From Rubritalea squalenifaciens DSM 18772 (lineage in GTDB: Bacteria; Verrucomicrobiota; Verrucomicrobiia; Verrucomicrobiales; Akkermansiaceae), in NCBI RefSeq assembly GCF_900141815.1, contig NZ_FQYR01000003.1, positions 558,001-622,000 of the forward strand: a DNA stretch of 64,000 nucleotides, in the 5' to 3' direction. Within the stretch, counting starts at the first letter, position 1. Every line of letters starts with the position of its first letter. The position numbers and the translations under genes were made by a program. The notes under the pieces were generated by a model, which worked only from the letters and a program-made list of their open reading frames with translations, did not search any database and was not told the DNA's origin. Shown piece by piece: positions 47,870 through 61,302 of the stretch.

Positions 47870-48106
47870 ATGGCAGACAAAGAAGATAAGAATCCTGAAA
47901 ACATTACTGGTGCATTTTACGTTGATAGTCAGTGCATCGACTGTGACCTGTGCCGTGAGACAGCTCCAAATAACTTCACTCGTGAAGAAGACGAGGGGTA
48001 TTCCTATGTATACAAGCAGCCTGAGAACGATGACGAGCGTGAGCAGTGCATCGAGGCTATGGAAGGCTGCCCTGTAGAGGCAATCGGCGAGGATGGAGAA
48101 GACTAA
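47870..48106 (+). CDS. small single-cluster ferredoxin
   Basis: 78 residues, acidic. CxxCxxC at Cys22, Cys25 and Cys28 (QCIDCDLC) with Cys67 followed by Pro (EGCPVEAIG) forms one 4Fe-4S cluster site; Cys60 is an extra cysteine. The region between the two half-motifs lacks a second cluster, as in Pyrococcus/Thermotoga-type monocluster ferredoxins. Cytoplasmic electron carrier; its partners are not shown. The 3' end overlaps the next gene by 14 bases. Confidence 0.93.
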   Translation: MADKEDKNPENITGAFYVDSQCIDCDLCRETAPNNFTREEDEGYSYVYKQPENDDEREQCIEAMEGCPVEAIGEDGED

Positions 48107-49562: not shown

Positions 49563-50225
49563 ATGTCTAGTATTTCAGCCAGCGCGCATGACTCTCAGAT
49601 GGCCGCCAATGAGGCAGCCGATGAAGTCGCGGCTGCACGTGTTGACCCGGATCTGGAGCTCGTCAGGCTAGCTCAGTCAGGGGACACTAAGGCATTTGAC
49701 ATGCTCATCGTAAAATACAGCCCAAAGCTGTATGGTTTGGTTTACCACATGACATCCAACAAGGATGATGCGCACGACTTGCTGCAAGATGTGTTTGCCA
49801 AGGCCTATCGCTCCGTCAGTAAATTCAAGGGCAATTCGATGTTCTACACTTGGTTGTATTCCATAGCCACGAACATGACTCTGAATTTCCTCAAAAAGAG
49901 AAAACGAAGGGCGGCCAGTAGTTTGGATATGGTGGATACAGGTATCCAGAATGATCCCGCCTTTGTGGATTATGGGCACCGGTCAAATCCCAGGAGACAA
50001 ACAAACATCCATGAGCTTCAAAAAAAATTGAACGAAGCTATGCAGAAGTTGTCTGATGACCATAGAGCGGTGGTTACCATGTTTGATATTCAAGGAATGG
50101 CTCATGGAGAAATAGCTGAAATCCTTGGTATATCGGATGGAACTGTCAGATCTCGACTATTCTATGCCCATCAACAACTGCGAGGTTATTTGTCAGATTT
50201 CCACGGCAGCGAGTTAGAGCAATAG
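49563..50225 (+). CDS. ECF sigma factor (RpoE-like)
   Basis: 220 residues. An N-terminal Ala/Glu-rich extension (about 1-25) precedes sigma region 2 (KAFDMLIVKYSPKLYGLVYH, DDAHDLLQDVFAKAYRSVSKF, FYTWLYSIATNMTLNFLKKR) and region 4 (KLSDDHRAVVTMFDIQGMAH, EIAEILGISDGTVRSRLFYA). The region 2.2 and 4.2 motifs are intact. It heads an operon with a small membrane protein and a secreted HtrA-like pseudoprotease. Upstream, tgaacgg at 49516 and tcttg near 49539 hint at an ECF-type promoter, but this is weak. Confidence 0.93.
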   Translation: MSSISASAHDSQMAANEAADEVAAARVDPDLELVRLAQSGDTKAFDMLIVKYSPKLYGLVYHMTSNKDDAHDLLQDVFAKAYRSVSKFKGNSMFYTWLYSIATNMTLNFLKKRKRRAASSLDMVDTGIQNDPAFVDYGHRSNPRRQTNIHELQKKLNEAMQKLSDDHRAVVTMFDIQGMAHGEIAEILGISDGTVRSRLFYAHQQLRGYLSDFHGSELEQ

Positions 50226-50248
50226 ATAATTTACTAACGAATTTTATC

Positions 50249-50668
50249 ATGAACGACCAAGAACTACAGGATCTTATTCGCCTTAAGCGCTACGAGCAGC
50301 CCGAGGAAGGATACTTTGAGTCCTTCCTGGAAGAGTTTCATGAGAAGCGTCAGCAAGAGCTCCTTACCAATTCAGCAAGGAGCCTGTTGATGGAGCGCAT
50401 CGGTGTTTGGTTTAATCAGTTAGGTGCGATCAAATGGGTTGCTGGTGCGGGGCTTGCCTATGCTGCGGTAGCGATTTCTATCTCAGTATGGAATGTAAGT
50501 GATGAGTCCACTCTACCAGTGGCTCACACGGGTACTGCAGAGCAGGCTAGTTCCGCAGAGTCATCTCCTGAGGTGCAGATTATCCCTCTAAGTTTGGCGC
50601 ATTCAGAGCCTGTGAGCTTTCACAAAGTACAACAGCCAGTGGTGGGTGGTACAGATCAGCTCTTTTAG
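50249..50668 (+). CDS. probable anti-sigma factor (small single-pass membrane protein)
   Basis: 139 residues. The N-terminal about 60 residues are cytoplasmic, helical and charged (YEQPEEGYFESFLEEFHEKRQ), a membrane helix lies at about 65-85 (KWVAGAGLAYAAVAISISVW), and the remaining about 55 residues are extracytoplasmic and S/E/P-rich. No cysteine/histidine zinc-binding ZAS motif is present. The position 23 bases after an ECF sigma gene and the topology argue for a membrane anti-sigma that holds the sigma factor; the sequence itself shows no known anti-sigma family. Confidence 0.72.
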   Translation: MNDQELQDLIRLKRYEQPEEGYFESFLEEFHEKRQQELLTNSARSLLMERIGVWFNQLGAIKWVAGAGLAYAAVAISISVWNVSDESTLPVAHTGTAEQASSAESSPEVQIIPLSLAHSEPVSFHKVQQPVVGGTDQLF

Positions 50669-50708
50669 TACTTGCTGATTTGTTCTTCGGCTTGTTAGCT
50701 AGGATCAT

Positions 50709-51617
50709 ATGTTTAGACAATTTATCTTAAGTGGAGTCGCCGTAGCGGCATCGACATTAACTCTGCTAGGACAGGCTCTAGATTTAGAGTTTACGCATGC
50801 CGAGGGCATGGAAAAGGGGAAGTCTCCCGCAAAAGGTGTGCTGATAGATGATGAGGGCACTTTGGCCACAGTAGCTGTATACGGTACGGATCCGCATAAA
50901 GCCTTTTGGGTAGATTCTACTGGTAAAGAAGTAGCACTCACACTTCTGGCTCACGATGAGGTGAGCAGAATCACTTTGCTCAAAGTTCCCAAGCCGGTTA
51001 GCGAGGGGAAGAAAGTCGTCAAGCAGATGGGAGAGTCGAGTGATCTCGTGCCAGCTGCTGCACTAACCACTGACTTGGAAACCAAAGGAGGTGTGAGCCG
51101 TCTAGTGAGCAAGGTGAAGAGATTTGATGGCAAAGTTCTCCCTCTGACTTTGATGCGTGTAGCGCACACAAAAGAAGGTGTGATGCCTGGTACACCCTTG
51201 TTCGACGAGAAAGGTGATCTGGTAGGCTTGGCTCACGAAGCTGTCGTTTCTCAGAAGAGCAACACATATGCTCTACCCGTTGAGGCCCTGAAGCACATCC
51301 TGGCAATCTCTAATGATGCCGGTAAAGATAAGGAAGGGGTAGTGAAAAGGTGTTGGGTAGGTCTAGCTCTGGATGCTCAGAGTGACTCGCCCGTGGTCAC
51401 CGGCGTCAGACCTGAATCTCCTGCTCGTAAGGCTGGAATCATAAAAGGGGATATCATTCTTTCTGTGGCTGGTGAAAACGTCGCTGAATACGCTGATGTG
51501 GTCGATTCCTTTTACTATATGCAGCCGAAGAAGGCTGTTACCTTCAAGGTTCTCCGAGGCACTGAAGTTAAAGAATTCAGTGTCGTTCCAGAAGTAAATC
51601 CTCTATTCAAAGAATAG
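50709..51617 (+). CDS. secreted HtrA-like pseudoprotease with PDZ domain
   Basis: 302 residues. Signal peptide about 1-23 (AVAASTLTLLGQA). A chymotrypsin-like barrel (about 25-200) follows the HtrA/DegP pattern in outline: GVLIDDEGTLAT, DEVSRITLLKV and GTPLFDEKGDLVGLAHEAV, but the catalytic triad is missing: no His after the first block, no Asp in DxAllKv, and the GNSGGP serine replaced in GVMPGTP. A PDZ domain with GVRPESPARKAGIIKGDIIL spans about 210-297. It is likely a non-catalytic sensor or chaperone of the envelope, probably tied to the sigma system upstream by operon. Confidence 0.87.
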   Translation: MFRQFILSGVAVAASTLTLLGQALDLEFTHAEGMEKGKSPAKGVLIDDEGTLATVAVYGTDPHKAFWVDSTGKEVALTLLAHDEVSRITLLKVPKPVSEGKKVVKQMGESSDLVPAAALTTDLETKGGVSRLVSKVKRFDGKVLPLTLMRVAHTKEGVMPGTPLFDEKGDLVGLAHEAVVSQKSNTYALPVEALKHILAISNDAGKDKEGVVKRCWVGLALDAQSDSPVVTGVRPESPARKAGIIKGDIILSVAGENVAEYADVVDSFYYMQPKKAVTFKVLRGTEVKEFSVVPEVNPLFKE

Positions 51618-51656: not shown

Positions 51657-51693
51657 CAAGCTTCTGCTTCTTAGTTAGCAGAAGCTTGATTTT
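51657..51693 (+). terminator. intrinsic terminator overlapping the convergent gene's stop
   Basis: A 12-bp perfect stem (caagcttctgct / agcagaagcttg) with an 8-base loop followed by atttttat. Its right arm lies inside the last codons of the minus-strand gene at 51671. Confidence 0.8.
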
Positions 51694-52612
51694 TATCTAC
51701 AGGCACAGGGGGAACCTCGTCGTAGAACTGCACCATGCCAGCAGGGTTGCTCGCGTGTCTGCGTGGGTCATGATAAGCGAATAAATAGGCGCGTGTATCT
51801 GAACTCAGTCTTAGAGTGCTGTTGTAGAATTGTCGCTTACTGCCATTCTTGGCGACCAAATGAGCTACAGCCTTAGTACGGTTCTTTTGGTTTACATTCG
51901 GTGAGAACCTACGTGATTCCATCGGCTTTAGAGTGTATTTTTTGAAGCCTGAGCCTACAGGAAGTTCGACTTCCAGTCCGTATGGCGTGGCATTGAAGAC
52001 CAAAAGAGAGCCTCCGGGGAGCTTCTGGGGGCTGGTGTCGAAAGACTTGATGACGGGGTCTTTCCAGCCTTCTTTTTGATTGGTTCTGTTGATGAGTGCC
52101 AGGAGAATATTGGACTGGTTCTCGCTGACTGTGGCAGAAGCGTAGCGTTTCAGTTCCATCTTGGCATCTTCACCTGCTACCTGTCGTCTGAGTAGGATAT
52201 CCAGTCTTGCACGGTAGGAGAGTTCTTGTTCCTGAGTACAGGCGTTCAAGATTAACGGTGAAGTAACCATTTTGCCCGTATCCACAGCCTTGCGCTCAGG
52301 AATGTAGACGAGAGGCGGGAGGTACTCGAAATCCTTTCCCATGACTTCGACTGGCGAGCCAGCTGGTATGGTCTCAGTGATGACCTCACCCTCAGGAGTC
52401 CTTAGTTTGATTACCTTGGGCTCTTTTGTTTGTTCAAACTTTGCGAGTCGTCGGTGCCCTAGAGCCACCATTCGTAATCCCAGTTTCTTTTCGTGGGCTT
52501 CGAATTGTGGTGACTCACCACCATTGGGCTGTTGTTCATCTTGAGCTAGTCCTGATATTGGAGGTATGAACAGGAGACAGCTTAGCATGATTGATTTGTA
52601 ATAATGATTCAT
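51671..52612 (-). CDS. secreted partner protein of giant pilin-like protein, copy 2
   Basis: 313 residues. Signal peptide about 1-23 (SIMLSCLLFIPPISGLAQ). The mature protein contains DPVIKSFDTSPQKLPGGSLLVFNA, which corresponds to DPKVNTYNLSKIKLDQSSIFMINA in the gene at 56623, so the two are diverged paralogues sharing a strand-rich core of about 80-100 residues (about 185-285), with a Lys/Arg-rich end. Family unknown. It stands 53 bases downstream of the giant pilin-like gene at 52666, the same arrangement as in the other copy. Confidence 0.8.
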   Translation of the reverse strand: MNHYYKSIMLSCLLFIPPISGLAQDEQQPNGGESPQFEAHEKKLGLRMVALGHRRLAKFEQTKEPKVIKLRTPEGEVITETIPAGSPVEVMGKDFEYLPPLVYIPERKAVDTGKMVTSPLILNACTQEQELSYRARLDILLRRQVAGEDAKMELKRYASATVSENQSNILLALINRTNQKEGWKDPVIKSFDTSPQKLPGGSLLVFNATPYGLEVELPVGSGFKKYTLKPMESRRFSPNVNQKNRTKAVAHLVAKNGSKRQFYNSTLRLSSDTRAYLFAYHDPRRHASNPAGMVQFYDEVPPVPVDKNQASAN

Positions 52613-52665
52613 AGCTATTCTGCGGTAATAAGAGATTACCAGGAGGTCAGTTATTTTTGAAGGTG

Positions 52666-55600
52666 TTAGTTCATAGAGATCTCATCAGGATTGAGCCATC
52701 TGAAGGATTCGATTTTGTACTTTCGTCCAAAGTCCTTGTTGAGCTCTGAGTTTAGATCATCGAATTTTACAGTCGCATTGTCCGCACTAGAGTCGATGTA
52801 TTCAGAGGTCCGTTGAACCACGGCTTCACACCAGGCGGTGGCCATGACTCGTCCCTTAGAGTCACGTGATTCACCATAAGCACGGATACGGAAGGTATCA
52901 GAACGAGGTGTGAGTAAGGCTCCGATGGTTTCGAGAACCTTACCTTGGGTTAGGTGAGCTGGCGAGTTGGCATAGCATTCGTTTGGCAAATTCGCTGTCG
53001 CAAAGCCCTCAGCACCTCCAGCAACCAGCGAAGCTTTGGTATACTCTTGGCCTGATTTAATCGGGATGTCTCTCAGGCTGGCATTCAAGGCCGCCTTTTG
53101 AATGGCGATTTCGATAGGTCCAGCATAGCTGAGGAGGTCTTCTTCTGTTTGTTCTGCAAGAGTAGGAGCTGCATTCGGATCAATCTCGGCCTGTCTTAAT
53201 CTGCGATTTACAAAGTCAGATAGTGAAATGAATGGAGCACGTCGTTTGACTTGTACTACGATCTGTTCTGCTAATCTATTCAGTTCTTGCTCGTTTAGCT
53301 GTCTGTAACCAGTCCAGGTTTCTGAATCCATAGAACCTCCAGGTGTGGTGCCGTTGCCAGCAGGTGCTGAGATGCCCGGGAATGGCGCGGCATTGTCAGC
53401 CGTATTCTTCCCATCAATATCCATGCCCATATTCATAGACAGAAGAGCTTTCCAGGCGATGACGTTTGTTGAATTGACGGAGTGATGATTATGCAGTCTC
53501 AAGTTTTTAGCTATAGTATCTGCCGCTTTCTCCTGATTATCATTAAGGTTAGCGCCGGAGTCATTGACTACATAGATGTTTGGGTTAGGTAGTGATCCTT
53601 TTTCCGTATATGAACTGAGGCTGGTATTTTGTGGTTTGGTAGAGAAGAAAAAATCGTCCCAGAGAGCATGGTTGATCTCATACCTGTAATCATATGCGGC
53701 GTAATTGGTTTCCGGATCGTAGGAGTTTTCCCACCAAGTCGCATTGCCAGTAACACGCGATTGATGCAGCCCGTTCCACCACATGCTCTTGTATTGATTT
53801 TTGGGAAATGCTGTGTGCTCGCGCGGGGATGTGACTGGCACCATACTTTCTCCAATAATGAATGAAGGAGCACTGAATTCATGGGTCAGAGGTGCCTGTC
53901 TTAATTGGCCTATGGAATATACATCAACCTCTGCTGGAGGAATGTCGAATATGGTATAGCGCAGTTCGCCTAGGCTGCTGCTGTTCATGAACGGGGAGGT
54001 CTCAGCTACGCCTTCAGAGGTGTACCTGGGTAACATAAAGGGATCCAAGTATCCGGGTTGCTCCTGGTTCTCACTGGCCAAGGGTCCGAATGAATATTCA
54101 TGCTTAACAGTTGGAATCCAGAAGATCCAGTCCCAGGGTGTTCTACGGTAAAAGGGGGATCTCATGTTAGAAAGTTCCCAGATAGGGTAGTTCCAGAAGG
54201 CGTTCGGCAAATTAGCCATATTCTCAGCAGTTTCTCTAAAAGATTTCAGACGCATGCCAATCTTTGTGCGGTTATCTGGAGGTACTGAATTTGCTGAGGA
54301 CATCTTAAGTACAGGCAGCCAAGGGCGGTTGATGTCATGCCAGCGCCCTTCATTGCCACGTACCCAGTTGTGGATGTCCATCGTATGCACGATTGGGTAA
54401 TTGGGGCTGTCTGTGCTGCCAGAAATGACCTGGTCATAGCGTGTCGGTCCGTTTGATAGACGCAGGCGGGCAGAGGTCGATTCACCGTATCCAATGTGAT
54501 AGCCGTTTTGCCAGAAGCGTTTGAATTTGTATTGAATATTTTTGCTGGTGTTGATGGCTGGGCCACCGGCCATGTCTACATAGAAGCAATTGAGATCCAT
54601 AGGGTCGCTCTCTGCGCTCAGAATGTTATTTTGAATAGCGCCATCACGATATTCGAGCTTCTGTGGGGTGGTGTTTTTAGGTGTAAACACGAGCGACTGT
54701 CCAGGTTCGATCTCGACTGGATCCAGGAAAAAGAACATGTAGGCCGTTCTTGCCTTGGCTCCATCATTGCCGAGAATATTACCCCAGTAGGATGAATTCC
54801 AATTGTATGAATCGGGTTTGCCGTCTTTGTTCGCATCTTGGTTGGTTTCAATCTGAAGAGTTGCTCTCTGATTAATTTGGACGAAATAACCAGATGTTCT
54901 GATGGTGACGTTGTATGGGTTCCAGAGGGTGACTCGAGGATAAAGCAAGAGTGAGATGTTCTTTGATGCTGCAGAGTTGATGACTGGGCGTGCATAAAAG
55001 CTGTACTCGACGATGTAAGGGTGTACACCAGCTTTAATGACCTTGGTGGGGTCTGGATAATCTTGCAGCGCTCCACCGCCGTATTTGGCGATCTGGGGAT
55101 TGATTGTACGATTCTTGCCTGCCATATTTCCTAGTTTGATATAATCACGAAGAATACCAAATTTTGGAGAAAGCCTCTTGAAGCGGTCATGTTCAAGCAT
55201 CGGGGTTTCATCGATGAGTAAGGTCTGGTTTTGACCGTCCAGTTCACCTAATCCAGCGCTTGAGGTGTTTTGTATGAATGGTGTTAGGTCTTTCTTGAAC
55301 TCACCTGTGAGGGTGTTGATGATGAGCGCGCTATTGTGGCTGGTGATTTCCTGGCTGTGAGTTTTTAGGAAGTCTCTGGCGAGTTGATTCGCGGAACCAT
55401 CTGGGTCCAAGGCTCCAGTTCCATAGCTCACATAGCGGTTTGTTTGCTCGGAGTCTTGAACAAGCTCGTCATCGGCGAGGTTGGACAAGGGTTGAGTCTC
55501 AGATAGTTTGGCGTATTGGCGTTTTTGGCCCGTATAGAGATTGGCATAACCTCCATCACTAACAGATTCGATGCTTGGTTGCGCTGATACATTCTTGTTA

Positions 55601-56256
55601 TATTGAATAATAGGGGAGGCCATGCCAAGGTCTGTAACGTGGTATGCATAACTTCCTGTTTTTTTGCCATTAGACTTTGTGGAGACAAGTGGAGCTAGCA
55701 CTGGATCGCCATTATCGAATCCTAAAGCGATGGCGTCCGTACCTTCTGACAGCTCACTGACACGTGGATCAAAGTTACCTTTTTCTGATCCGCTAACAAG
55801 CCAGGTCAGGACTTGTTCTTTATGATCGATGTGTCCCGGATCAGAGGGGTTACGGCGGTCAGAGTGATAACCATTTTGCTCTTGATAGATAATGGGATCA
55901 CCATCTTCTGTCACTGTCGACCATACGCCTACCGTTGATGGGTGGTTAACATCTTCAATGGGTAAAGTATCTGGGTCACTATCAAATACGCTGGCGGTAG
56001 CTGTTACCCTTTGGTCAGGTCCAGTGTATTTTTGGAGTTGTGCCAGAGCAATCGTGATTGCCAGGCGCGCATTGGCTTTGGCCTCTGCTTCATATTTTTC
56101 TCCTGATACAACTCGTGATGTGTTGCTGGATAGCGTAATGACGCCCATGGCAATCGTCACTAAGAGTATGAGGATTGTTATGGTCGAAACGAGTGCAAAG
56201 CCTAATCGATCTACGTGAGTAGAGCTTGCCACTCTACTGGGTTTGGTGATGTACAT
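52666..56256 (-). CDS. giant pilin-headed surface/secretion protein, Verrucomicrobia type, copy 2
   Basis: 1196 residues. After a basic leader the pilin-type segment GFALVSTITILILLVTIAMG (about 19-38) forms one membrane helix, followed by ANARLAITIALAQLQKYTGPDQRVTA (pilin-like helix, 65-90 region). Central 800 residues are beta-rich with many W, Y, N and G and no motif I know. C-terminal blocks IVVQVKRRAPFISLSDFVNRRL (about 1020), DTFRIRAYGESRD (about 1125) and MATAWCEAVVQRTSEY are shared with the copy at 57601. The shape resembles GspK-type minor pseudopilins scaled up. I associate it with the large hypothetical families around the Verru_Chthon cassettes, from memory. Confidence 0.85.
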   Translation of the reverse strand: MYITKPSRVASSTHVDRLGFALVSTITILILLVTIAMGVITLSSNTSRVVSGEKYEAEAKANARLAITIALAQLQKYTGPDQRVTATASVFDSDPDTLPIEDVNHPSTVGVWSTVTEDGDPIIYQEQNGYHSDRRNPSDPGHIDHKEQVLTWLVSGSEKGNFDPRVSELSEGTDAIALGFDNGDPVLAPLVSTKSNGKKTGSYAYHVTDLGMASPIIQYNKNVSAQPSIESVSDGGYANLYTGQKRQYAKLSETQPLSNLADDELVQDSEQTNRYVSYGTGALDPDGSANQLARDFLKTHSQEITSHNSALIINTLTGEFKKDLTPFIQNTSSAGLGELDGQNQTLLIDETPMLEHDRFKRLSPKFGILRDYIKLGNMAGKNRTINPQIAKYGGGALQDYPDPTKVIKAGVHPYIVEYSFYARPVINSAASKNISLLLYPRVTLWNPYNVTIRTSGYFVQINQRATLQIETNQDANKDGKPDSYNWNSSYWGNILGNDGAKARTAYMFFFLDPVEIEPGQSLVFTPKNTTPQKLEYRDGAIQNNILSAESDPMDLNCFYVDMAGGPAINTSKNIQYKFKRFWQNGYHIGYGESTSARLRLSNGPTRYDQVISGSTDSPNYPIVHTMDIHNWVRGNEGRWHDINRPWLPVLKMSSANSVPPDNRTKIGMRLKSFRETAENMANLPNAFWNYPIWELSNMRSPFYRRTPWDWIFWIPTVKHEYSFGPLASENQEQPGYLDPFMLPRYTSEGVAETSPFMNSSSLGELRYTIFDIPPAEVDVYSIGQLRQAPLTHEFSAPSFIIGESMVPVTSPREHTAFPKNQYKSMWWNGLHQSRVTGNATWWENSYDPETNYAAYDYRYEINHALWDDFFFSTKPQNTSLSSYTEKGSLPNPNIYVVNDSGANLNDNQEKAADTIAKNLRLHNHHSVNSTNVIAWKALLSMNMGMDIDGKNTADNAAPFPGISAPAGNGTTPGGSMDSETWTGYRQLNEQELNRLAEQIVVQVKRRAPFISLSDFVNRRLRQAEIDPNAAPTLAEQTEEDLLSYAGPIEIAIQKAALNASLRDIPIKSGQEYTKASLVAGGAEGFATANLPNECYANSPAHLTQGKVLETIGALLTPRSDTFRIRAYGESRDSKGRVMATAWCEAVVQRTSEYIDSSADNATVKFDDLNSELNKDFGRKYKIESFRWLNPDEISMN

Positions 56257-56300
56257 TGTTTATCTCTGAGTCTGCGTGTATAAGAGTGCGTCTTCCTGAT

Positions 56301-56353
56301 GGTGTGTTATGTAAGATATCCTAATTTAGGATTTTGGGTATGTATAACACGCC
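56301..56353. repeat. nested inverted repeat upstream of the pilin-like gene
   Basis: Outer arms ggtgtgttat (56301-56310) and ataacacgcc (56344-56353) are complementary with one G-U; inside lies the near-perfect palindrome atcctaatttaggat (56318-56332). It is 45-97 bases before the gene's ATG on the minus strand. It could be a protein-binding operator or an RNA leader hairpin. Confidence 0.6.
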
Positions 56354-56555
56354 TAGAAAGAGTGGGTTGAATTGTTTGGTTGCAGAGATATTCAATTAAA
56401 CTGCTCCTCGGGACATTTGCAAAATCTGCATCTGATGAAATTCTGCACAACAGCTTATACAGAATAGTGGGAGGCTTCGGTCTTAGGGTTCCAGAATGGG
56501 GGGAGATTCATATTCGGTAAGGCTCTTCTGTGATGAATGACGACCATGCTGCTAC

Positions 56556-56587
56556 GAAAAAGGCGCTGCAATTTTTTGCAGCGCCTT
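56556..56587 (-). terminator. intrinsic terminator of the copy-1 module
   Basis: A 12-bp perfect stem (aaggcgctgcaa / ttgcagcgcctt) with loop tttt. On the minus strand it is followed by tttttcg. It ends the transcript of the module 57601-61302 plus 56623. Confidence 0.88.
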
Positions 56588-56622
56588 AGTGCGATGAGGT
56601 TTTGTAAGATGAGATTCAGAGC

Positions 56623-57549
56623 CTATGGCTGGGGACGATAAATGGGGGCATCCTGGCAGTTTTCATCAGCCTTGATCTTGCTCCGAGCGAGTTTGAAGCC
56701 TCGGAAATCCTCCTGCGGAGTAACGGGGTAAGTCACGAACAAGTAGGTGAAGTTCTTGGCATTGGGGAGTGCAAGATCCTGAGGATTGGCCCATTTTCTG
56801 CCATCAGGAGAGGCTGCAAGTTTCATTTTAACACCGTTTTCTTTGAGAGAGGGAAATACCTTTGTAGCGTAAGGTTTCAGAGCAAATTTTTCATCGTGTA
56901 GATATCCACCAATGTAGCGCTCTGATCCCGCATTGATCATAAAGATAGAGGACTGGTCGAGTTTGATTTTACTGAGATTATACGTATTCACTTTGGGGTC
57001 AGTCCACTTTTTGGTTTTGAGCGGTTTGGTCACTGTTACCAGAAGCCTCTTTTGTTCAGGCTGCATCTTATAGGAAAAAGCTTTTTTAAATACTTCCTTA
57101 CCCTCCTTATTTCTTTTCATTTCGTAAAAATCCAAGATAGGGGTTTTGGGTTTAAGTCGAACAGGATTCCCTAAGCTATTCAGGTTGCAGGAGACTACTT
57201 GATAGTGGTCTCCAGTCTTCAAATAGTATCTCGTTGGTGGTCTCTCGTCTTCTGGTCTGATGACTACCTGAAGTCCAGTTTCATGAGAGGGGGCGGACCG
57301 GGTTTCGCCTTCACCTTCACCCTCGGTAGGAGTACTGTTTGCATTCGGAGTATCAGCAGGGGCTTTTTTCTTAGGAGCCTGGTGTTTAAAGATCATTAGC
57401 TCCTGTGGGCCGATGGGCATGATTTGTACATCAATGTATGGCGGAGCTTTCTCTTCAGGTTTAGGGACTGGCTGAGGAGCGTCCTGTGCTGTCAAGAACT
57501 GCGTGGATAGAGCCAGTGCAAGCGTCGTAAACAAAGTACGTCTAGTCAT
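56623..57549 (-). CDS. secreted partner protein of giant pilin-like protein, copy 1
   Basis: 308 residues. Signal peptide about 1-21 (LFTTLALALSTQFLTA, AQ cut). A P/K/E/T-rich stretch at about 24-90 contains the run EGEGEGE, then a strand-rich body: IVIRPEDE, RYYLKTGDHYQVVSC, DPKVNTYNLSKIKLDQSS. It is related to the 51671 protein in the core but diverged elsewhere. 51 bases separate it from the giant pilin-like gene upstream. Function unknown; co-occurrence in both modules suggests it works with, or is exported alongside, the giant protein. Confidence 0.8.
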   Translation of the reverse strand: MTRRTLFTTLALALSTQFLTAQDAPQPVPKPEEKAPPYIDVQIMPIGPQELMIFKHQAPKKKAPADTPNANSTPTEGEGEGETRSAPSHETGLQVVIRPEDERPPTRYYLKTGDHYQVVSCNLNSLGNPVRLKPKTPILDFYEMKRNKEGKEVFKKAFSYKMQPEQKRLLVTVTKPLKTKKWTDPKVNTYNLSKIKLDQSSIFMINAGSERYIGGYLHDEKFALKPYATKVFPSLKENGVKMKLAASPDGRKWANPQDLALPNAKNFTYLFVTYPVTPQEDFRGFKLARSKIKADENCQDAPIYRPQP

Positions 57550-57600
57550 GGATATAATGAGTTTTAGTATTTTAAGTCAGTCAGTTTGAAATCAGTCTTA

Positions 57601-60600
57601 CTATTCTGCTGGTTCTAATTCATTACGCTGAAGCCATCTAAAGCTCGTGATGATGAATCTTCTGCCAGGGTCGTTCTCAACTCCAGCGATAGGGTTGAGT
57701 GCAGCCTGTGTGGTATCCGGATTGATTGGTTCCGGAATACGTTGAACGGTCGCCTCGCACCATGCCTTAGCCATGACTTTGCCATCTGTGGAGAGAGACT
57801 CTCCGTAAGCGCGGATGGTGAATGTATCTGAGCGGGCAGTAAGGACACTGCCGACTTGTTGGAGAATGTCGTTCTGAGTCAAGTAACCAGGAGCACCCTC
57901 GGCCTTGGAGAGCCGTACTGGCTGTGACTCACCATTTGCCTGGTATTCAAAGCTTCCATAGGTTTGCGCATGTGGGGTGCGAGTTGGTCCACCCCAGTAT
58001 TCAGCACCATAAGTATAATTGTCTTCGGCCTCTTTAGCTGTGGGCAGGTTGAAATCACTTGGTGAAGAGCTGTCAAGGCGATCATTAATGCCTGAGTTGT
58101 TGATGGCAGCCTGAAGTGCGCCAAAGAACTCTATCTCGTCGTCCTCGCCGTCTGGTGTGTCCAGTCTGCGGTTCACGAAATCAGCTACTCCAATGAATGG
58201 TGCTCTTTTCTTCACTTGGACTACGATCTTCTCAGCCAGCAGGGTAATCTCTTGATCGGTCAGATCACGGTAGCCGGCCCAGAGTAGATCCTCATTAGCA
58301 GATGCAGCACTTCCCGCACCTTTCTCACTGATTAGCAAACTGGAGAAGGGGTTTGCTGAGAAGTTGCTTCCATTTCTGGATGGGAGCTTCACTCCATTGA
58401 ATGAGCGAAGTAACGCTTCCCAGGCCAACTTGCTGGTGGAGTTTACATTGAAGCCACCTTGGATCATCAAGCTGTTAGCCGCCTTGTGGTAGTTAGTTAA
58501 GTCTGGGCGGTTGTTTGATGAAGGGTCAAAGGTGTTGAGTACCATGCGTGAATTAGGCAATGGTGTGTTTGAATCCCATTTGTCGTTGTTCCAGGTAGCC
58601 GATGGGCCAGAGATAGGAACGGATGAAAGGAAGTATTTATCCCACATGAAGTAATTGGTCTCGTAAGCCATATCAAAGATCATGGGGTTATCTCCAGCTT
58701 CGCTGAGAAGGTGGACTTCATCATTGTTGCCTTCAAAGAGGCGGTTGAGCTTATCTTGCCAGCTTTGTCGTTGGTCGCTGAATGTCAGCGAGGTAGTCTG
58801 TGGATCTACGTACGGAGAGCAAATGCCTGTACCGATCACATAGGATGGGTGCCATACATGAGGCGTGAACTGAACATGTTGCAACTGGCCGAGTGATTGT
58901 GGTGAGATCACTGTGTCAGGAAGCTCGAAAAGAGGGAAGACTTGCTCTGAGCTGGTAAACGTGTTGTTAAAGAATGGAGAAGTACGGAATTTACCGGAGT
59001 CTGCGCTGTAGTGTGGTGAGACCTCTGGGTCATTCCAAGCAGGGAACTGTCGTGTTTGCGAAATTGGACCCCAGGAATAGAGGTGGGCGCGGCCACTGCC
59101 ATAGGCTGTGTTTTCAGCGGTCGACCCTGTGCCAGCGCCTGTGTAGACCTGACCAAACATGTTGTCAGAATCCCAACGGTGAATGTGTCTTGCCCTGACG
59201 TTGTTGTGGACGAGTGGGGCATAGTACCAAGGTTCGCGAAGTGCCTTGCCATATACGCGGTTTGAGTAACTTTCGTAGAAGTGCTTCCAGCGCATGCCGT
59301 ATCCAATGATAGTTTCAGGGATGATGTTCTGTGCGAGATGGTTACCGATAGGTTCAACAACACGAGGCGGTCTGTAGCCTGGCAGCCAGCGTCCGTTGTT
59401 GCCTCGAGAATAGTTGTCGATGTAATAGCGCTGGATAGCAGGGAAACTGTCGCGGCCAAGATCGGTAAACTTAGGATTACCGGATCCACCTTTAGCTGCA
59501 TAGAGGTATACAGACTGTACTGGTTTATCACCATGCCAGAGGATGCCTCCTCCATAGTTCATTCTGATCGTATTAGGGATGTAGTCTTTGCGTAACTGTT
59601 TGTTGCTACCATTTCCGTTGCTGTTCTTTACGAAGCGATAAAAGCAGTTGAGGTCTGTTGGGTCTGTGCTGGCACTCAAGCGGTTGCCTCCGATGCCTGA
59701 ATTGGAGCGGGCAAAGGGTTTGGCCTTGGAGAAGAGTGATGCGCCGCTTGGGTCCGCGGTGAATTGAAGGCACTCACCCGGCTCGAATGTGGTGCCTGGA
59801 ATGGTGAAGATAATTCTGTCATTTCCGCCGTAACCAAAGTTATAGTTAATTGTGGTGCGGATTTTATCAGTCTGGATTCTCCCATTACCGTCTTTGTATT
59901 GGTACTCCATATCGTAGTAATCATTCCCTTTGAACTCGAAGGCGACGTAAAGGTCAGGCGTCTTGAGGCGGACGTTATATGGGTTCCAGAGTACTACACG
60001 TGGGTAAATTAACTCATAGATGTAGCGGGAAACTGGATCGTATGAGTAGTTCGTTTGATAGACAGCCTCCATCAAAGTTGGTTGAATAGGCTGTTTGGTA
60101 AAGTTGTTAAGTTCAGCAGTTTTGTACGTGCTGTCGTAGTTGGCAAAGGTCATCTCGATCGTCTGAGATCCCCTTTGTCCAGAGAGCTGATCTTTAAGAT
60201 TGTACCATTCACGGATAGCGCCAAACTTTGGCCCGATGAGGTCACGCTGAGGCATGTCGAAGAGAATCGGGGTGGTGTCATTGATGCCTTGCATGCTGCC
60301 GCTGCCTTGGACATCACCGTTACTTTCAAGATAAGCAGTTAGGTTCTTTTTAAGTCCTCCTTTGACAGGGTCTGCCAAGACACTGAGTGACTGGGTGGTG
60401 ACGTCATGGCGGAGCATTTTAACCGCCTTTTTAAGGTCTGGATCAATAGGAGATGAGCCCATGCTTGCCAAGCTGGACTGGTTTTGGGTGAGAATTTTTG
60501 CAATTTCCCTGTTGGTGAGTTGGGCATAGTCAGAGAAGACATTGCCTAAACCAAATCGGTTTGGGGAAAGGACTTGATAGAGAGTTTCATAGTTCGTCAT

Positions 60601-61302
60601 GTCCGGTTGGTCAGAGCTATCATCATCAGCAAGGGAAATGTTAGCTTTGGTGTTTTCATCACTGACCCAGTAGGCGTAGCTACCTGTCTTGTTAGCTAGC
60701 GAAACCTTTTCTGCATACACGCTTTTCTCTCTAATGGTCTGCTTTGTTTCGTCTGAACTGTCAGAGGCTGCGTTATAGAGGATGACAGGATTGTTGAGTG
60801 TGGATTGCGGGGAGCTCTGATTACCGCTGACCAGCCACTGTAATACTTGATCGGACTTTTCATAATTATTAGCTCGATCATCGATGAGTGGGCCGTCTTG
60901 AGTCGGATGAATGAAGGGGGTGTCACTTGTGCTGCCTTTCAGTCCATTGGTTTTCCACACGCCCACCCAGTGCTGGTGTTCGACTCCATCAATAGCTTCT
61001 GATTCTGGGTCAGTATCCAGTATGGAAGCGGTGGCGGTGACGCGTTGGTCTGGTCCTGCATATTTTTGCAGTTGTCCAATGGCGATTGACAGAGCTAGCC
61101 GGGCATTGGCCTGGGCTTCTGCTGCATATCTGTCTTGAGTGGCTCCTTTGGAGGAGATGGTGGATAAGGAGATGACTCCAAGTCCAATCATGAGCAAAAG
61201 CATCATCACGGTGATGGTGGATACCAAAGCAAATCCGTGGCGCTTGAGTTGTTTTTTGACTAGTATATTAGTCGTTGGGTTTACGAGAGCAGGTTTCATC
61301 AT
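57601..61302 (-). CDS. giant pilin-headed surface/secretion protein, Verrucomicrobia type, copy 1
   Basis: 1233 residues. Basic leader (VKKQLKRHG), then pilin-type helix FALVSTITVMMLLLMIGLGV (about 24-43), then ANARLALSIAIGQLQKYAGP (about 66-85). The middle is beta-rich and asparagine-, tyrosine- and tryptophan-rich. Near the C-terminus are VQVKKRAPFIGVADFVNRRL (about 1055), DTFTIRAYGESLS (about 1170), AKAWCEATVQR. The same blocks occur in the 52666 protein, so the genes are tandem duplicates with extensive divergence in the middle. The second ATG (codon 2) is an alternative start. Export probably depends on a type II/IV-pilus-like system not in this window. Confidence 0.86.
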   Translation of the reverse strand: MMKPALVNPTTNILVKKQLKRHGFALVSTITVMMLLLMIGLGVISLSTISSKGATQDRYAAEAQANARLALSIAIGQLQKYAGPDQRVTATASILDTDPESEAIDGVEHQHWVGVWKTNGLKGSTSDTPFIHPTQDGPLIDDRANNYEKSDQVLQWLVSGNQSSPQSTLNNPVILYNAASDSSDETKQTIREKSVYAEKVSLANKTGSYAYWVSDENTKANISLADDDSSDQPDMTNYETLYQVLSPNRFGLGNVFSDYAQLTNREIAKILTQNQSSLASMGSSPIDPDLKKAVKMLRHDVTTQSLSVLADPVKGGLKKNLTAYLESNGDVQGSGSMQGINDTTPILFDMPQRDLIGPKFGAIREWYNLKDQLSGQRGSQTIEMTFANYDSTYKTAELNNFTKQPIQPTLMEAVYQTNYSYDPVSRYIYELIYPRVVLWNPYNVRLKTPDLYVAFEFKGNDYYDMEYQYKDGNGRIQTDKIRTTINYNFGYGGNDRIIFTIPGTTFEPGECLQFTADPSGASLFSKAKPFARSNSGIGGNRLSASTDPTDLNCFYRFVKNSNGNGSNKQLRKDYIPNTIRMNYGGGILWHGDKPVQSVYLYAAKGGSGNPKFTDLGRDSFPAIQRYYIDNYSRGNNGRWLPGYRPPRVVEPIGNHLAQNIIPETIIGYGMRWKHFYESYSNRVYGKALREPWYYAPLVHNNVRARHIHRWDSDNMFGQVYTGAGTGSTAENTAYGSGRAHLYSWGPISQTRQFPAWNDPEVSPHYSADSGKFRTSPFFNNTFTSSEQVFPLFELPDTVISPQSLGQLQHVQFTPHVWHPSYVIGTGICSPYVDPQTTSLTFSDQRQSWQDKLNRLFEGNNDEVHLLSEAGDNPMIFDMAYETNYFMWDKYFLSSVPISGPSATWNNDKWDSNTPLPNSRMVLNTFDPSSNNRPDLTNYHKAANSLMIQGGFNVNSTSKLAWEALLRSFNGVKLPSRNGSNFSANPFSSLLISEKGAGSAASANEDLLWAGYRDLTDQEITLLAEKIVVQVKKRAPFIGVADFVNRRLDTPDGEDDEIEFFGALQAAINNSGINDRLDSSSPSDFNLPTAKEAEDNYTYGAEYWGGPTRTPHAQTYGSFEYQANGESQPVRLSKAEGAPGYLTQNDILQQVGSVLTARSDTFTIRAYGESLSTDGKVMAKAWCEATVQRIPEPINPDTTQAALNPIAGVENDPGRRFIITSFRWLQRNELEPAE

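Follow-up and report, generated by a model that had tools for sequence, protein, structure and literature searches.

GspK-like giant proteins and their co-inherited secreted partners form a multicopy two-gene family in Rubritalea squalenifaciens and other Verrucomicrobiota

The genome of Rubritalea squalenifaciens DSM 18772 (4.32 Mb) encodes a multicopy family of giant pilin-like proteins, each paired and co-inherited with a secreted partner protein. The giants lack glutamate at mature position 5 (Glu5) and have a predicted GspK fold, and they co-occur across genomes with a set of D-, B-, and C-like pilins that is present only once in R. squalenifaciens. We favour, with some reserve, the reading that the giants are many alternative GspK-type tips which share a single base of minor pilins and which each have an Ig-like partner inherited with them.

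Two adjacent modules in the window

The window, i.e. the whole stretch of 64,000 nucleotides that was analysed (C3:558001-622000), contains two adjoining modules with the same gene order and strand, each consisting of a giant of ~1.2 kilo-residues with a pilin helix followed by a signal-peptide protein of ~310 residues. The ORF coordinates confirm this arrangement, which had been described in the first-pass annotation of the window, and all four ORFs were found on the minus strand at the positions given there. The features are as follows.

57601..61302, minus strand: giant B, 1233 aa, GspK-like minor pseudopilin family (homology to giant A and nine further giants of the genome)
61060..61236, minus strand: prepilin-type mature start of giant B (GFALVS...) and long N-terminal helix, no Glu5 (sequence aligned to the predicted helix of giant A)
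56623..57549, minus strand: partner B, 308 aa, signal peptide and two predicted Ig/transthyretin-like beta-sandwich domains (predicted model and fold matches)
56560..56587, minus strand: terminator-like hairpin 3' of partner B, 12 pairs followed by a T run (position and fold)
52666..56256, minus strand: giant A, 1196 aa, GspK-like minor pseudopilin family (predicted model; GspK/XcpX are the top four fold matches)
56023..56199, minus strand: predicted long N-terminal helix of giant A, residues 20-78 (AlphaFold2 model)
53197..53274, minus strand: conserved block LAExIVxxVKxRGPFxSLxDFVNRRL of giant A, residues 995-1020 (sequence comparison)
52693..52896, minus strand: C-terminal beta-strands RSDTFxIRAYGE...AWCEAVVQR...SFRWL of giant A, residues 1121-1188 (sequence comparison and model)
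51671..52612, minus strand: partner A, 313 aa, with a signal peptide and in one family with partner B
49563..51617, plus strand: context, namely an ECF sigma factor, an anti-sigma-like protein, and an HtrA-like protein

Giants A and B are similar over their full length (30% identity; 428 bits; E 5e-134) and belong to one family. As had been noted earlier, they are alike at their ends and unlike in the middle: identity is 47.5% in residues 19-210, 22.9% in residues 211-850, and 34.1% in residues 851-1196 (numbering of giant A). The partners are, again as proposed, distantly alike, being barely similar in a pairwise comparison (24 bits, E 0.004; E 0.04 within the set of 11 proteins) and members of one family by profile. 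The hairpin and T run behind partner B, which a simple terminator scan did not list, suggest that modules B and A are probably separate transcription units. Composition gave no sign of a foreign origin (46-49% G+C in the modules versus 49.6% in the window).

The trio of ECF sigma factor, anti-sigma-like, and HtrA-like genes is found at other sites in congeners without modules. The HtrA-like protein (window 50709-51617), encoded behind the other two genes, carries PGTPLF at its serine motif, as judged by eye, in place of GNSGGP, which we take to be the usual motif; it may therefore be inactive as a protease.

The giant-partner family

A genome-wide search identified 11 giants in R. squalenifaciens. 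Each is followed 3' on the same strand, at a gap of -11 to 60 nt, by a gene for a protein of 236-325 aa with a signal peptide (judged by eye). Since all 11 giants have a partner, the two genes represent the normal unit of the family. The first-pass annotation had regarded the module as the usual cassette reduced to two genes; this does not hold, the two-gene module being the rule here and similarity to TIGR02600 (Verru_Chthon_A) being restricted to the N-terminal helix.

Among 123 full-length giants, a profile built from the 11 partners of R. squalenifaciens recognises the gene behind 83 of the 112 from other genomes, which is the independent figure; the overall count of 94/123 includes the 11 pairs used for profile building. 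A broader partner profile adds four giants with a partner, three giants lie at a contig end, and the remaining 22, all from other genomes and with room behind them, have no partner detectable by either profile. One group of giants without the usual partner (L048, L053, L054, L057, L059, L063, L065, L069, and L071) is mostly from metagenome genomes, and a different gene (MLCRKVVP...) is common to L057, L059, and L071 behind the giant.

Across 94 modules, the distances between partners follow those between their giants (Mantel r 0.669, with none of 999 permutations exceeding 0.074), as they do within the 11 modules of R. squalenifaciens (r 0.459, p 0.0006), and the nearest relative is identical for giant and partner in 49 of the 94 modules. 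Giants and partners are thus co-inherited.

At least 577 loci in the genome contig collection encode relatives of the giants. The best 80 of these are from Verrucomicrobiota or Kiritimatiellota by record title, apart from one titled only 'Bacterium'; Luteolibacter, Roseibacillus, and Persicirhabdus, genera with cultivated members, are represented among the matches listed. In an even sample of the phylum, a giant was present in 27 of 145 genomes, a count of presence only, with at most four candidates scored per genome. In the per-genome counts of giants and C-like genes, gene pieces were merged by distance, so that a fragment at the end of a contig may have been counted as a gene of its own. 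Seven loci (L049, L051, L055, L069, L110, L111, and L125) are titled Akkermansia muciniphila and have contig names of dated samples; these titles may be wrong. A search of titles and abstract starts in the open-access literature found nothing on the giant family or on Verru_Chthon.

Resemblance of the giants to GspK

No Pfam family matches the giants above cut-off, and a sequence search of solved structures with the giants gave no matches. An AlphaFold2 model of giant A (60-row alignment; pLDDT 78.9, pTM 0.87) was compared with solved structures, and the top four chains are all GspK/XcpX: 3ci0_K (Z 11.6, 3.1 A, 246/280 residues), 5vtm_X (Z 11.6), 6utu_C (Z 11.2), and 9a1f_T (Z 11.0, 261/295 residues). 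The fifth row has a Z of 4.3. In this model, a domain is inserted into the pilin fold as in the GspK/XcpX structures, and the N- and C-terminal parts of the giant, which are the best conserved, are where the GspK core sits. Foldseek by itself also places GspK first but with an E of 0.086, and a profile comparison of the giants with the GspK of the same genome aligned the N-terminal 60 residues (the helix) and nothing more, so that the assignment of a GspK fold rests on one predicted model.

The giants combine a prepilin signal with the absence of Glu5, a GspK trait: Glu5 occurs in none of the 118 readable giants (5 of the 123 are unreadable). By contrast, it is present in the genome's D-, B-, and C-like pilins. 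Like the giants, GspK and PilX lack Glu5 (PMC7541494). In the giant at C2:6 kb (L046:6465-10217), Ala replaces the Gly before the cleavage site (KAFALVS).

Against the NCBIfam GspK model NF037980 (cut-off 130 bits), giant A scores 15.1 bits and giant B has no match listed, and none of the 11 modules lies within the gsp cluster at C3:188-207 kb. Because both family cut-off and operon context were tested in this way and neither places the giants in GspK, we call them GspK-like, not GspK. Nor are they full-length matches to TIGR02600 (cut-off 332.3 bits): giants A and B score 17.7 and 15.6 bits, over the first ~60 positions only, a profile comparison aligned 67 columns confined to the N-terminal helix, and no locus in the genome exceeds the TIGR02600 cut-off.

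Fold of the partner proteins

The model of partner B (pLDDT 82.8, pTM 0.75) contains two beta-sandwich domains and shows no C-terminal beta-propeller of the PilY1 type. Its closest fold match is the two-domain extracellular region of PepT2 (Z 13.7, 182 residues), followed by the single domains of HGSNAT (Z about 10) and AlgF (Z 7.9). The predicted partner folds are Ig/transthyretin-like sandwiches, a description that carries no functional inference. Pfam contains no family for the partner, and a sequence search of solved structures with the partners gave weak, unrelated matches only.

The type II secretion system and a single set of D-B-C-like pilins

A complete-looking type II secretion system (T2SS) is encoded at C3:188-207 kb and includes a canonical GspK of its own, which matches NF037980 over its whole length at 70 bits, below the cut-off of 130; the other gsp names at this site were assigned by eye or from weak matches. 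The only D-B-C-like set in the genome consists of three successive prepilin genes that stand alone at C5:127.4-129.9 kb. Of these, the first has a match to Verru_Chthon D (23.8 bits, ranked after a general prepilin model), the best match of the third is Verru_Chthon C (45.4 bits), and all Verru_Chthon matches of the set are below the cassette cut-offs. Adjacent pilins B, C, and D are part of the definition of Verru_Chthon cassette protein A; none of these pilins lies beside any of the 11 modules.

At E<1e-10, a C-like pilin is present in 17 of 19 genomes with giants and in none of 11 without (Fisher 1.4e-6); this test covers 30 genomes, including that of R. squalenifaciens, its relatives are not independent, and the threshold of 1e-10 was set after the values had been seen. 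The two giant-bearing genomes that lack the pilin are G001, which is 58% complete, and G016, whose giant contains stops. Weak C-like matches (~1e-6) occur in four giant-less genomes (G020, G021, G025, and G029), all with a classic cassette. Giants number 1-14 per genome, compared with mostly one C-like gene (G004 has two). In G022, the giant, partner, D, B, and C genes are contiguous on one strand, and in G008 the order is D, B, C, a pyrE-like gene, giant, and partner.

The giant of G016 (C11) is broken by four stops; module and shared set may decay together. Another three-gene set (L151:4863-8019, at C4:337 kb) encodes a 695-aa protein with a pilin-like start, KGFVNITVVVV, and no Glu5. This protein is possibly a large tip pilin of a second kind, with no relationship to the giants.

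Origin of the adjacent pair

The first-pass annotation had explained the pair by an old duplication followed by diversification. An old split of homologous giants and partners is upheld, but a tandem duplication in place is not. The two modules share only two longer significant patches of DNA (132 bases, 73% identical; 65 bases, 75% identical), and any common origin is therefore old. Trees were constructed for the 123 giants and, with an AU test, more carefully for 21 giants. Giant A groups with L056 (47% identical) and with L157 of congener G004, and giant B groups with the R. squalenifaciens giant at C3:865 kb and two giants of congener G002, L160 and L159. Forcing A and B to be sisters costs 544 log-likelihood units (p-AU 8e-51, tree of 21).

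No second giant was found beside the A orthologues in the stretches read of G004 and L056. In congeners G005 and G010, the genes corresponding to window positions 48093, 48512, and 49128 directly adjoin those of 61524 and 62238, so that the whole block is absent from this site. In G007, the sigma, anti-sigma, and HtrA-like genes are in place and are followed by a different gene. Eight close pairs of giants occur elsewhere (one each in L152, L153, L155, L156, L097, and L105 and two in L154). In the tree of 123, the two giants of a pair are immediate sisters only in L156 and L097 and are near each other in L155. Most close pairs are hence unrelated within the family, and clusters appear to arise mostly from separate modules that were brought together.

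These data bear on the proposal that one reduced Verru_Chthon cassette was duplicated in place and then diversified. The adjacency of the modules, their common order and strand, and the two patches at 73-75% identity would agree with it, as would the sister relationship of the A-side and B-side clades (support 96/97), by which the A and B lineages may go back to a very ancient duplication. The non-sister position of the giants themselves, the lone A orthologues, the empty site in two congeners, the scarcity of sister pairs elsewhere, and the sub-threshold TIGR02600 scores all oppose it. We regard this proposal as very improbable, and as it stands it fails.

Proposed mechanism and alternatives

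In the scheme that we favour, each module would provide one alternative tip for a type II secretion or type IV pilus-like filament. The giant would be a GspK-type minor pseudopilin: it would have a prepilin signal, a long helix lacking Glu5, and several hundred variable residues inserted within a GspK fold, would be processed by prepilin peptidase, and would cap the filament, like GspK or PilX. The partner, exported by its own Sec signal and inherited with the giant, would most likely bind the giant's tip domain as PilY1 binds PilX, an analogy drawn from its position, its signal peptide, and its co-inheritance with a tip-type pilin that lacks Glu5. The other minor pilins of the tip would be supplied by the D-B-C-like set at C5:127 kb, common to all giants. 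A cell would then possess about 11 interchangeable tips on one base, each presenting a different binding or cargo surface outward; an assembling machine (a T2SS or a pilus system) and a ligand are presumed parts of the scheme. For many Verrucomicrobiota, we propose more tentatively an exchangeable-tip filament in which one minor-pilin trio may serve a dozen or more giant tips with co-evolving Ig-like partners, the modules being scattered, gained and lost as two-gene units, and presenting many surfaces or selecting many cargoes. Counting against the scheme that we favour are the complete T2SS with a GspK of its own, the 22 giants without a detectable partner, and the second C-like match of G004.

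The presence of that T2SS suggests another role, in which the giants would be secretion-specific T2SS tips that replace GspK and recruit cargo, such as the glycan-active and PEP-CTERM proteins encoded nearby, the partner being cargo or chaperone. GspK has been proposed to touch T2SS substrates (PMC7541494), and the flanks of the R. squalenifaciens modules include GH94, GH31, GH20, GH38, sialidase, CBM4_9, F5/8, and LamG/PEP-CTERM proteins, although this nearness of CAZymes has no null comparison behind it. PEP-CTERM genes lie within 3 kb of 3 of 10 loci (1.1 expected, p 0.08); the value at 2 kb (3 versus 0.76 expected, p 0.035) is the lowest of four distances tried. The modules of the window adjoin HtrA and pseudouridine synthase genes, and no recurrent gene class was found among near or far neighbours over many genomes. 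Linkage to glycan and PEP-CTERM genes was thus suggestive in the R. squalenifaciens genome but unconvincing overall, and our preferred explanation is accordingly not based on it; a role as cargo-recruiting T2SS tips is unlikely, though it deserves consideration. It might also be that the pilin-like N-terminus does no more than anchor the protein in a membrane or direct its sorting, with the giants acting as inner-membrane or periplasmic scaffolds outside any filament. Assembly into a filament is itself inferred, and a domain of several hundred residues may pass a secretin with difficulty. Conservation is nevertheless highest in the parts that hold the GspK core, and the co-occurrence and shared cassettes with D-B-C pilins likewise make a scaffold role improbable. 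As a separate observation, the genome contains 113 PEP-CTERM motifs above the curated cut-off, i.e. a large sorting-signal repertoire.

Comparison with known systems

If the shared-base arrangement is correct, a large uncharacterised family gains a testable role, namely that of alternative tips for a secretion or pilus filament. By placing about a dozen giant tips on one set, a single machine would diversify what it binds or exports in a new manner, and this could be relevant to the way in which these bacteria deal with many substrates. To our knowledge, a described system contains a single GspK or, at most, a small number of tip sets that each include minor pilins of their own.

The closest likeness is to GspK/XcpX, the minor pseudopilin at the T2SS tip (PDB 3ci0 and 5vtm), which takes part in the I-J-K tip complex and is required for secretion; with it the giants share the predicted core fold, a prepilin-type N-terminus without Glu5, and an extra domain that is inserted into the pilin part, not appended at the end. 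They differ in being four times longer, below the NCBIfam GspK cut-off, and outside the gsp operon, and in occurring in up to 14 copies per genome with a dedicated secreted partner and alongside a canonical GspK. Verru_Chthon_A resembles them in size, in the N-terminal ~65 residues, in being multicopy in the same phylum, and in the presence of D/B/C-like pilins in the genome; however, no similarity is detectable past the helix, and the R. squalenifaciens genome has no TIGR02600 protein above cut-off. Among eight classic Verru_Chthon loci inspected, several have a B-type pilin next to A and none has a partner of the giant type.

The proposed use of several alternative tip sets by one machine has a counterpart in the type IVa PilX-PilY1 tip complexes of Myxococcus xanthus, in which a single machine is supplied by three tip clusters that have been proposed to form tips of different properties (PMC7541494). 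Each M. xanthus cluster contains all four minor pilins, whereas the giants appear to use one common set, and the partner there is a PilY1 beta-propeller, whereas that of the giants is predicted to be Ig-like. Pilin modules that carry large functional domains are represented by ComZ of Thermus, whose domain is inserted in the sheet, and by PilB/PilC of Streptococcus sanguinis; pilins bearing large grafts occur widely, and in GspK, as in ComZ, the additional domain lies within the sheet (PMC8179133). In contrast to these proteins, the insert of the giants contains no recognised known domain, is far larger, and occurs in large paralogue families. The proposed arrangement would extend the grafted-domain pilins to many giant tips with one common set of smaller pilins.
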